From contig CALUNH010000006.1 in the NCBI GenBank assembly GCA_944321965.1, forward strand, positions 35,791-99,790: DNA of 64,000 nt. The letters are read 5' to 3'. The stretch's first letter is position 1. Every line of letters begins with the position of its first letter. Source of the stretch: an uncultured Alistipes sp. Lineage in GTDB: Bacteria; Bacteroidota; Bacteroidia; Bacteroidales; Rikenellaceae. Under the pieces are notes generated by a model. That model was given only the letters and a program-made list of their open reading frames with translations. It did no database searches and was not told the DNA's origin. Shown here piece after piece: positions 11,290 through 13,345 of the stretch. The position numbers were made by a program, and so were the translations under genes.

Positions 11290-12339
11290 ATGGATACGAA
11301 GAAAAAGATCGTCACCTTCGGGGAGATCATGCTGCGGCTCACACCGCCCGAACGACTGCGTTTCAACCAGACGAAACTCTTCCAGGTCAGCTACGGAGGC
11401 AGCGAAGCCAACGTTGCCGTGGCCCTGGCCAACTACGGACTGCGGAGCGAATTCGTCACCTGCGTGCCCGACAACCGCATCGCCGATGCCTGTCTGGACG
11501 ACCTGCGCAGTTACGGCGTGGAGACCGGCGACGTGCTGCGCTGCGGAAACCGGCTCGGGCTCTACTACATGGAGGAGGCCGCGGCGATGCGTTCGTCGCA
11601 CGTGGTCTACGACCGGGCCGGGTCGTCGTACGACCTGCTGCGCCCGGGGATGATCGACTGGGCATCGATCTTCCGCGATGCCGCGTGGTTCCACTGGTCG
11701 GGGATCTCGGCCGCCGTCAGTGCCTCGGCCGCCGAGGCGTGCGCCGAAGCCATCGCCGCGGCCCGCGCTGCCGGACTGGTGGTTTCGTGCGACATCAACT
11801 ACCGCAAAAACCTCTGGAAATACGGCAAAACCCCGCAGGAGGTCCTGCCGCCGCTTATGGCGCAATGCGACTTCTTCTTCGGCACGGACGACGAATACGA
11901 ACGGATTCTCGGGCTGCAACTCCCGAAATTCGAGGCCCGGGATGCCTCCTACCAGCCCGATACGGCGGGTTACGAAGCAGCCTCGCGGCAGGTGGCGGAG
12001 CGTTTCCCGCACTGCCGGGGCATCGTCTTCGGGCTGCGCAGCGTGCTGAGTGCCAACCATCACCTGATTTCCGGAACGCTCTACACCGACGGTCGGCTCT
12101 ACACGTCGCGGGTTTACGACATCGACTGCGTGGTGGATTGCGTCGGTGTGGGCGACGCCTTTGTCGGCGGGTTGATCTACGGGTTGGCCCGGCACGCCGG
12201 GGACATGCAGTTCGCACTGGATTTCGGCACGGCGGCGTGTGCAATCAAGAACACCGTACCGGGCGACTACGGGCAGTTCACGGCCGAAGAGACCGCCCAA
12301 CTGGCCCGGGGTCCCATTACCGGCCGCATCGCCCGCTAA
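11290..12339 (+). CDS. PfkB-family carbohydrate kinase, KDG kinase paralogue
   Basis: 349 aa. It aligns along its whole length with the KDG kinase encoded at 7290-8309: KIVTFGEIMLRLTPP, VSYGGSEANVAVALANYG, HWSGIS, and a C terminus ending GRIAR, as against GRVQR in the paralogue. The anion-hole motif is DCVGVGDAFVGG (283-294), with Val287 where most PfkB kinases have Ala and the paralogue has Gly; the catalytic Asp289 is kept. The likely substrate is KDG or a similar keto-deoxy sugar acid, but this is inference. It has its own promoter and follows the DUF4861 gene. Its last 23 bp overlap the convergent lipoprotein gene. Confidence 0.82.
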   Translation: MDTKKKIVTFGEIMLRLTPPERLRFNQTKLFQVSYGGSEANVAVALANYGLRSEFVTCVPDNRIADACLDDLRSYGVETGDVLRCGNRLGLYYMEEAAAMRSSHVVYDRAGSSYDLLRPGMIDWASIFRDAAWFHWSGISAAVSASAAEACAEAIAAARAAGLVVSCDINYRKNLWKYGKTPQEVLPPLMAQCDFFFGTDDEYERILGLQLPKFEARDASYQPDTAGYEAASRQVAERFPHCRGIVFGLRSVLSANHHLISGTLYTDGRLYTSRVYDIDCVVDCVGVGDAFVGGLIYGLARHAGDMQFALDFGTAACAIKNTVPGDYGQFTAEETAQLARGPITGRIAR

Positions 12340-12781
12340 CCCGCTGCAGCCACTCCCCGGCATCGGGTTCGAGAACCTCCCAGGGCGGCGGATAATCCCG
12401 GTAGATGAAGGGCATTTCGGCATCGTTGAAGCGCCGCGTCAGCCGGGCTCGCAGTGCCATGCACTCCACCAGTTGTTTCACCCGCCGTCGGTCGCAGAAG
12501 CGCACCATGCGCTCGATGAGGCGCCCGGCCTCCTCATCGAGCGATTCGAGCAGGGCGAACGTCCCGTCGCGCATATAACCGGCATTCAGAGTCCCGAACT
12601 TTTCGGGACCCTGGGCCGCGTAGGAGGAGAGCACCTCGCCAAGCAGCTCCGATTGCAGGTCGGTCACACGGCGGAACTCCTGTTCGGCCAGATCGAATTG
12701 CAGTTGCCGGTCGCATCCCGTCAGAAACAGCACCGTCAGAAGCGCTCCCCAAATCGGGGAAAAGATTTGCCGTTTTTTCAT
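12317..12781 (-). CDS. Small hypothetical lipoprotein
   Basis: 154 aa. The N terminus is a signal peptide with a lipobox (MKKRQIFSPIWGALLTVLFLTGC, Cys at 23), so it is a predicted lipoprotein. The mature part is predicted mostly helical and highly charged, with no motif I recognise. It overlaps the 3' end of the convergent kinase gene by 23 bp with no terminator between. Its ATG (12781) directly abuts the T-run that ends the predicted 6S-like RNA, so any transcript of this gene would either read through that RNA or start within it. Function unknown. Confidence 0.72.
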   Translation of the reverse strand: MKKRQIFSPIWGALLTVLFLTGCDRQLQFDLAEQEFRRVTDLQSELLGEVLSSYAAQGPEKFGTLNAGYMRDGTFALLESLDEEAGRLIERMVRFCDRRRVKQLVECMALRARLTRRFNDAEMPFIYRDYPPPWEVLEPDAGEWLQRVSGRCGR

Positions 12782-12980
12782 AAAAAAAGCACGGGTCAGT
12801 TACTTACCGGCTGACAAGGTACGGCAATACCCGCAAAATACGATAAATAAAAGCCCGCGCAAACGCGCGAGCATTACATTTATCGTTCCCTATTTTGCCA
12901 AAATTTGCCGTTTTTGTCAGCAAGAACAATAACGTAACGCTTACGTTAAACAAAATGTCATGCGGCGGATGCACCCGCCC
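12782..12980 (-). ncRNA. Predicted 6S-like small RNA (about 199 nt)
   Basis: The minus strand carries a full promoter (see 12987-13017) that would start RNA near 12980 and a run of seven U at 12788-12782. In between, the sequence folds into one long interrupted hairpin: CTGACAA (12920-12914 on minus) pairs with TTGTCAG (12817-12811), CGGCAA with TTGCCG, GCAAAATA with TATTTTGC, CGATAAAT with ATTTATCG, and an apical GCTCGCGC / GCGCGGGC stem. A basal pairing GCGGGT with ACCCGT can close the structure, leaving a large central bubble that contains a local hairpin (TAACGTAA / TTACGTTA). Length, promoter, U-run and the stem-bubble-stem form fit 6S RNA (the Bacteroidales-1 type) that mimics an open promoter and binds RNA polymerase. 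The apical stem contains a G-U pair only on the minus strand, supporting this direction. Identity is inference. Confidence 0.58.
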
Positions 12981-12986
12981 ACAAGG

Positions 12987-13017
12987 CAAAGATACGAATT
13001 TTTGGAAAAGAATCAAA
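12987..13017 (-). promoter_or_regulatory. Strong Bacteroidota promoter for the 6S-like RNA
   Basis: Reading on the minus strand: TTTG (13017-13014), 19-nt spacer, TATCTTTG (12994-12987). Both elements and the spacing match the primary sigma consensus exactly. The next gene in this direction is the 6S-like RNA, then the lipoprotein. Confidence 0.8.
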
Positions 13018-13020
13018 TCC

Positions 13021-13166
13021 CCGGCTTAAGAAGCCGGATTTAGGGGCGAAGGGATGTTGAAAGGATCGGAAGCAAATCACCGCTCCCGACGGTCGGTCGT
13101 ATGCGGGTAAAGGCTTCGGAAACCGCTAAAGGTTCAGCAGCCCCTAAAACCCGGCTCTTAGCCGGG
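13021..13166. repeat. Modular hairpin-capped repeat, copy R1
   Basis: 146 bp. It opens with the cap CCGGCTT-AAG-AAGCCGG (13021-13037) then TTTAGGGGC, and closes with the inverted form GCCCCTAAA followed by CCCGGCT-CTT-AGCCGGG (13150-13166). The ends are thus inverted repeats about 27 bp long, each holding its own hairpin. The inner part shares a 53-bp block (13044-13096) with R3 and a 30-bp block (13095-13124) with R2. No ORF with coding character is inside. It begins three bases beyond the -33 element of the 6S-like promoter. Confidence 0.8.
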
Positions 13167-13190
13167 CACCTTTTGCTGTCAAAAGGTGCC
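13165..13190. repeat. Hairpin between repeat copies R1 and R2
   Basis: Ten-bp perfect stem GGCACCTTTT / AAAAGGTGCC around the loop GCTGTC. It overlaps the last two bases of R1. The remaining 13191-13345 stretch has further nested inverted repeats (GGTTTGC / GCAAACC near 13260-13275; ACGGGGCC / GGCCCCGT) and no gene. Confidence 0.65.
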
Positions 13191-13345
13191 ACCAAAACCA
13201 TCCGCAAGTTGCTTTTTACGGGGCCGCAGTTTGGCGTCGCGGAAACGGGCGCCTGGCGCGGGTTTGCAAGCAAACCGGCCCCGTTTCTTATCGCGCCGCC
13301 TGCGCTGCGTCCTCTTTCCGCAAAAAGCAAAGTGCGGCAGCAAGG

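Follow-up and report, generated by a model that had tools for sequence, protein, structure and literature searches.

The trp leader is a transcription attenuator, in which pairing of segments 1:2 along with 3:4 and pairing of segments 2:3 exclude each other. Riboswitch classes likewise combine a conserved RNA fold before genes with an expression platform. The rod-shaped RNAs of the 6S type, namely 6S RNA (RF00013), 6S-Flavo (RF01685) and Bacteroidales-1 (RF01693), are about 190 nt in length with a promoter motif upstream, features shared by the RNA analyzed here. In Bacteroides, the accessible text of one report describes FopS, a 14-member paralogous family of sRNAs with a single-stranded 5' part and a terminator hairpin, which act in trans on susC mRNAs (PMC11697453). 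Another report, again in its accessible text, presents 3161 candidate structured RNAs, including HMP2_4205, a 132 bp candidate found mostly in Bacteroidetes near TPR genes (PMC8040213).

Here we present a comparative analysis of an RNA encoded on the minus strand of a 64,000-nt stretch of DNA from an uncultured Alistipes sp., the whole of which we term the window. A preliminary description had interpreted this RNA as 6S RNA or a close functional analogue. Our analysis points in a different direction: it is rather probable that the window RNA is a member of a large Bacteroidota family whose RNAs serve as structured 5' leaders, a new cis-acting class that would switch by means of mutually exclusive pairings. 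The fold, the covariation of the competing pairings A:B, B:D and D:E, the leader position and the bias toward exported proteins all emerge from comparison of sequences across loci. Like the riboswitches, the family has a single conserved fold before many genes along with an expression platform; unlike them, its targets share export rather than a known pathway, and there is no Rfam riboswitch match in the stretches scanned. We found no description of this leader RNA in searches of the open-licence PMC literature, and none in the accessible portions of PMC11697453, PMC2864571, PMC9723704 and PMC7366714. Going by the accessible text of PMC8040213, HMP2_4205 or other candidates from that collection could overlap with the family.

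The window RNA and its family

The sequence TTTG (13017-13014), a 19 nt spacer and TATCTTTG (12994-12987) together form, on the minus strand, a putative Bacteroidota-type promoter (12987-13017). Transcription would be expected to start near 12980 and, up to the end of a U7 run at 12782-12788, to yield a leader RNA of 199 nt (12782-12980, minus strand). Within it lies a long rod (12811-12920, minus strand) with three covarying helices, CTGACAA/TTGTCAG (12920-12914/12817-12811), CGGCAA/TTGCCG (12910-12905/12827-12822) and GCAAAATA/TATTTTGC (12898-12891/12840-12833), conserved internal loops and an apical part beyond, where we find the stem block CGATAAAT/ATTTATCG (12885-12878/12848-12841) and the apical hairpin GCTCGCGC/GCGCGGGC (12872-12865/12860-12853). 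The 199-nt RNA has a minimum free energy of -78.5 kcal/mol (z = -5.13), whereas 200 dinucleotide shuffles gave -56.1 ± 4.4, with none equally stable. The promoter, U7 run and nested stem blocks noted in the preliminary description are all present, and the compensatory changes that it had proposed to look for in related genomes were found at 15 of the 53 predicted pairs, which are compensated two-sidedly among five close copies. Its possible basal closure, GCGGGT/ACCCGT, did not fare as well: family-wide there is no covariation between the segment preceding the U-run (segment D, see below) and the 5' region (-7.14, as against -7.13 on permutation, in 92 of 95 loci).

BLASTN searches recovered a second copy in the same genome, 89% identical, and one copy each in 3 of 60 relatives. 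From five close copies we built a covariance model, R1, which matches the window at 12780-12968 with 216.7 bits, the window copy being itself one of the five building sequences. At E <= 0.1 there were matches in 159 of the 250 genomes examined from the same taxonomic family, with scores of 169-217 bits for the eleven top loci and 50-81 bits for those next in rank among the matches listed. Reading the sequences of these second-tier loci, we found that they share AGCGTT, GAAA, A-TTT, GCTCACG/CGTGGGC, GGT, ACCTC and a CC-CGC end before the T run, with variants; on this basis they are to be considered homologues rather than generic hairpins. The best of the listed R1 matches (ten of the eleven best, then lower ones), with one near-duplicate dropped, constitute a set of 95 loci. 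A wider covariance model, R2, matched at E <= 1e-6 at least 118 of the 295 genomes sampled from the order and at least 37 of the 296 sampled across the phylum (the window's genome itself, 1 from the order, 27 from the class and 8 from beyond it), both counts being lower bounds as 8 candidates were scored per genome. Deeper scoring at E <= 1e-4 gave 8 copies in the window's own genome, the window copy included, and 5-21 copies in eight other genomes picked from the matched ones.

A pattern of the apical-hairpin core recovered at least 117 stretches from Alistipes, Rikenella, Odoribacter, Prevotella, Tannerella, Barnesiella, Coprobacter, Muribaculaceae and others. Of 80 such loci tested, R2 confirmed 76, with 77 matches (among the matches listed); leaving out one cut by the locus end and 7 already in earlier sets, 69 of these form a fresh set. 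Core-pattern matches on contigs labelled Gemmatimonadetes and Holophagaceae (L194, L232; also L222, L245) are not members at E 1e-6. Scans of 38 stretches, comprising the window and two groups of 20 and 17 relatives, gave no Rfam 15 match to the RNA. A weak match to DUF805b RNA (L041:1439-1474, 31.1 bits, cut-off 35.6) lies between a leader RNA and a lipoprotein-like gene.

The rod fold is secure. In 61 sequences aligned to R1 (alignment A6, from 61 of the 95 loci) 91.9% of cells are paired, with 845 two-sided changes versus 262 in shuffles, and slid controls collapse. A broader sample of 81 sequences, aligned to R2 (alignment A9, from 80 sources, one row being a partial match), has 89.7% of cells paired, with 1064 two-sided changes versus 341; for helices 4, 5 and 7, within the rod, the paired fractions are 99.2, 100 and 95.7%. 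Both alignments were chosen for diversity and adjusted to fit the structure, and the comparison with shuffles takes no account of relatedness.

Leader position and downstream genes

The promoter motif TAnnTTTG occurs in the 120 nt or so that precede the RNA in 73/83, 23/38 and 48/68 loci of three sets (the first set described below, loci from the order and phylum, and the fresh set), from which loci with an unparsable apical hairpin or U-run had been excluded (2/85, 2/40 and 1/69, respectively). Around the U-run, between 30 nt ahead of it and 50 nt past it, the motif is found in 1/83, 0/38 and 2/68 loci, and its background is 7% of random 135-nt windows from the same loci. The next ORF downstream shares the strand of the RNA at 80 of the 85 second-tier loci that form a first set; the corresponding number for the fresh set is 66 of 69, with the upstream neighbor lying on either strand (33 plus, 30 minus). 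By a crude hydrophobicity rule, a signal-like start is seen in 63 of the 78 close same-strand downstream ORFs of the first set as opposed to 69 of 218 control ORFs from the same loci, and 52 of 64 same-strand ORFs starting within 350 nt look exported in the fresh set, as opposed to 107 of 343 controls. By the same rule, the first gene lacks such a start at 15/78 and 12/64 loci, respectively. The ATG of the fresh set is situated at a median of 56 nt past the RNA. A conserved structure is thus found upstream of genes, on their strand and at a typical spacing, and since the promoter motif precedes the RNA, is rare around the U-run and is followed by same-strand, exported-type genes, the family RNA has the appearance of a 5' leader, its genes being mostly of the exported type.

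The downstream proteins are otherwise diverse: no common Pfam family was detected among 72 of them (71 of the 78 first-set proteins and that of the window), the commonest matches being PEGA (6), DUF6567 (5) and BACON (3). In the window the gene behind the RNA is a 154-aa lipoprotein-like ORF (12317-12781, minus strand) with no Pfam match at E 0.01, and its ATG at 12781 abuts the U7 run, as the preliminary description had stated. A lipoprotein ATG at the U-run was seen at 8 of 10 window-type loci examined, the other two (L020, L024) having no lipoprotein behind the RNA. The unit of RNA and lipoprotein is present twice in the window's genome, with the paralogous unit running from G000:C4:10121-10306 onward (L048). 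This copy has a rarA-like neighbor, as in G023, and none was seen beside the window copy. The genome's copies other than that of the window include three directly before a lipoprotein-like ORF, two with such a gene as the second ORF, and two before other ORFs, the last being a weak match (E 1.2e-5). In distant Bacteroidota (L150, L151, L154, L158) a TonB-dependent receptor gene (Plug + CarbopepD_reg_2, SusC-like) lies 225-373 nt past the RNA. These four loci, along with L157 and L159, have small divergent ORFs upstream; a helix-turn-helix domain was recovered above the cut-off in L157 and weakly in L154, and those of L150 and L159 are without a Pfam match.

Many copies outside the window type also contain a mini-ORF near the RNA start. 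The motif GYYTATG is found there in 69 of 95 family loci (e.g. L034, L030, L050), and an in-frame stop follows within six codons in 68 of the 69, compared with 51/69 for frame +1, where ATGA mostly supplies the TGA, and 35/69 for frame +2. The equivalent values for the fresh set are 28/29, 18/29 and 12/29. The tiny ORF, mostly of 1-7 codons, varies in length and keeps its stop in frame, with no fixed peptide; the motif is absent from the window copy.

These data also bear on whether the RNAs could be a family of trans-acting sRNAs, encoded by genes of their own that end at the U-run and directed at mRNA targets elsewhere, with the exported-type gene being either a neighbor or the recipient of leaky read-through. 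An upstream promoter motif and a terminal U-run would suit such RNAs, and the multiple paralogues per genome are reminiscent of the 14-member FopS family, another multi-copy RNA family of Bacteroidales. However, the rarity of the promoter motif around the U-run, the common spacing and orientation relative to exported-type genes and the covariation of sequence beyond the U-run with segment D all speak against this explanation. Moreover, as far as FopS is described in the accessible text (PMC11697453), its single-stranded 5' seed region followed by a terminator hairpin is unlike a covarying rod placed as a leader, a distinction drawn on the fold. We consider trans action unlikely, though deserving of some weight, and favor the leader interpretation.

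Alternative pairings of segments A, B, D and E

Three segments of the window RNA, all on the minus strand, are at the heart of its predicted switching. Segment A (GCTCGCGC, 12865-12872) is the 5' arm of the apical hairpin and segment B (GCGCGGGC, 12853-12860) its 3' arm, the two retaining a U.G wobble. Segment D (CCCGTGC, 12789-12795) abuts the U-run and is complementary to B (7 pairs, one G.U), such that B could partner with either A or D. Pairing of B with D, followed by the U7 run, would form an intrinsic terminator.

Both pairings covary on one and the same alignment. For A:B 99.1% of cells are paired, with 25 two-sided changes versus 6.7 in shuffles, and for B:D 97.6%, with 27 versus 7.2, neither count being reached in 500 shuffles. 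Coarser measures are less decisive: the number of pairs with a two-sided change is 4 versus 2.1 for A:B (reached by 8/500 shuffles) and 4 versus 2.5 for B:D (29/500), and the number of further pair types was reached by 1/500 and 82/500 shuffles, respectively, which leaves two of the five measures for B:D within the reach of shuffles (29 and 82 of 500). At one pair a U.G wobble joins A and B in 70 of 80 sequences, and the same base forms a G-C pair with D in 71 of 78. In a separate measure of covariation, B:D gave -12.0 against -10.7 ± 0.15 over 93 loci, and -11.72 against -10.77 ± 0.16 and -12.14 against -11.77 ± 0.13 in two locus sets. The signal is small in the fresh set, -11.52 against -11.24 ± 0.08, at least 1 of 300 permutations having reached it (lowest -11.58), in part because the search pattern had fixed much of B. 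D covaries in addition with E, a segment beyond the U-run, in all three locus sets (-9.66 against -8.34 ± 0.22, -10.36 against -8.11 ± 0.36 and, for the fresh set, -8.63 against -7.34 ± 0.24). Of the four segments, A, B and D are present in the window copy; the U-run there is immediately followed by the ATG, which leaves no room for an E ahead of the start codon, and the best partner of D lies inside the coding part. Two members from the window's genome (L163:3030-3248, L164:1900-2122) have a different, larger apical domain, the 3' part of which, judged by eye, is still complementary to the segment preceding the U-run (GTGTGG/CCACAC).

The family thus has mutually exclusive structures, one of which ends in the U-run: A:B together with D:E excludes B:D, as in a classical attenuator, and this set of exclusive, covarying pairs suggests attenuation. 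The likeness to trp-type attenuators extends to the four-segment logic, the U-run, the gene close behind and the tiny ORF near the 5' end of many copies outside the window type. In contrast to them, the U-run of the family follows the third segment rather than the fourth, the tiny ORF is without a fixed peptide and is missing from the window copy, and one leader class stands before unrelated genes.

The location of D:E permits another interpretation, in which the leader acts on translation or mRNA stability: B would release D or allow D:E to form close to the start codon, with the U-run as a protein-binding loop in place of a terminator. D:E indeed brackets the U-run, and at 106 loci with a strong D:E pairing and an ATG, E ends at a median of 25.5 nt before the ATG, albeit with a wide spread (10th-90th percentile -40 to 181 nt). 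A nested B:D alternative would also be energetically poor as a terminator, being a median of 19 kcal/mol worse than the rod over 112 loci and 10.1 kcal/mol worse in the window copy. On the other hand, a U-run right behind a segment that covaries with B has the look of an intrinsic terminator, and we hold control at translation or stability to be improbable. Under the attenuation model, the same energetic cost implies that strand exchange would depend either on a factor able to open the rod or on a pseudoknot in which A:B alone is given up.

Mobile elements, 6S RNA and a proposed mechanism

Dispersed copies of this kind might also be small MITE-like mobile elements with terminal inverted repeats, which insert upstream of genes. 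Consistent with this, an inverted repeat, TACGCAC/GTGCGTA and its variants, closes many copies and covaries, and some matches lie near the contig ends of fragmented genomes. Yet the copies share the strand of the next ORF, as enumerated above (66/69 and 80/85), typically about 55 nt before it, which along with the deep covariation of the RNA fold is at odds with such insertion. Furthermore, the core pattern matched 0 IMG/VR contigs, a single query gave no plasmid match, and a single query gave one partial 67-nt phage match. Mobility is hence a very unlikely explanation.

As for the original 6S interpretation, the covariance searches suggested in the preliminary description, with RF00013 and Bacteroidales-1 (RF01693), left the window RNA unmatched. 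In the Rfam scan no 6S-type family rose above its gathering cut-off in the window, none was among 11 weak Rfam matches up to E 10 for 12500-13300, and RF01693, RF00013 and RF01685 had no match anywhere in the window's genome. In relatives, six of the weak matches to 6S families represent one other type of RNA, with the layout AAACT-AACA ... CAGGCC ... GGA. As a sequence pattern for divergent 6S RNAs matched only 1 of 46 genomes, we built instead a model, R3, from these six divergent RNAs, which resemble Bacteroidales-1 and 6S-Flavo. It matched 36 of 39 genomes at E <= 0.1, with a single match in 34 of these; within the genus, 23 of 24 searched genomes gave a match. R3 coincides with the strong RF01693 match of genome G038 and, in the order, also falls on weak 6S-Flavo and weak RF00013 matches. 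Its one match in the window's genome (G000:C14:55331-55528, E 1.2e-16) is, by homology, that genome's 6S candidate. A Bacteroides 6S RNA with product RNAs is reported in PMC7366714. The three Rfam families and R3 accordingly point away from the window RNA, for which we reject a 6S identity.

Despite the fit of its size, rod shape and promoter motif, it is therefore extremely improbable that the window RNA is a Bacteroidota 6S RNA or a functional analogue binding RNA polymerase, for it matches none of the three Rfam models, is one of 8 family copies rather than a single locus in a genome with a separate, single-copy 6S-like RNA, occupies a leader position before unrelated, mostly exported-type genes, and has a predicted, covarying rod with small internal loops alone in place of one large central bubble mimicking an open promoter.

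We thus return to the leader interpretation, under which the following mechanism can be proposed. The upstream promoter would start a transcript of roughly 190-250 nt, which folds into the rod and reaches the U-run; read-through would extend it into the next gene, which begins about 55 nt further on (0 nt for the window copy) and is usually one for a lipoprotein or other exported protein. In one state A:B would form the apical hairpin of the rod, along with D:E around the U-run and before the start codon, and this would leave the gene on. In the other, B:D would form directly ahead of the U-run and together with it terminate transcription or otherwise shut the gene off. We infer both this control of termination and a sensed cellular factor, which would set the balance between the states by reading the conserved internal loops of the rod. 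In its most general form the proposal is tentative: it is possible that a phylum-wide, previously unnamed class of RNA switches controls scattered exported and surface proteins, with the rod loops sensing a common factor and the exchange of B between A and D, possibly by way of a pseudoknot, deciding between termination and expression.

If this is true, the family would represent a large uncatalogued group of cis-regulatory RNAs, found in Bacteroidales as well as in other Bacteroidota and numbering 5-21 copies in each of the nine genomes for which we counted them. With its covarying segments A, B, D and E, the proposed mechanism is open to direct testing. Given that Bacteroidota dominate many guts, the family would provide a handle on the regulation of many orphan lipoproteins and secreted proteins.
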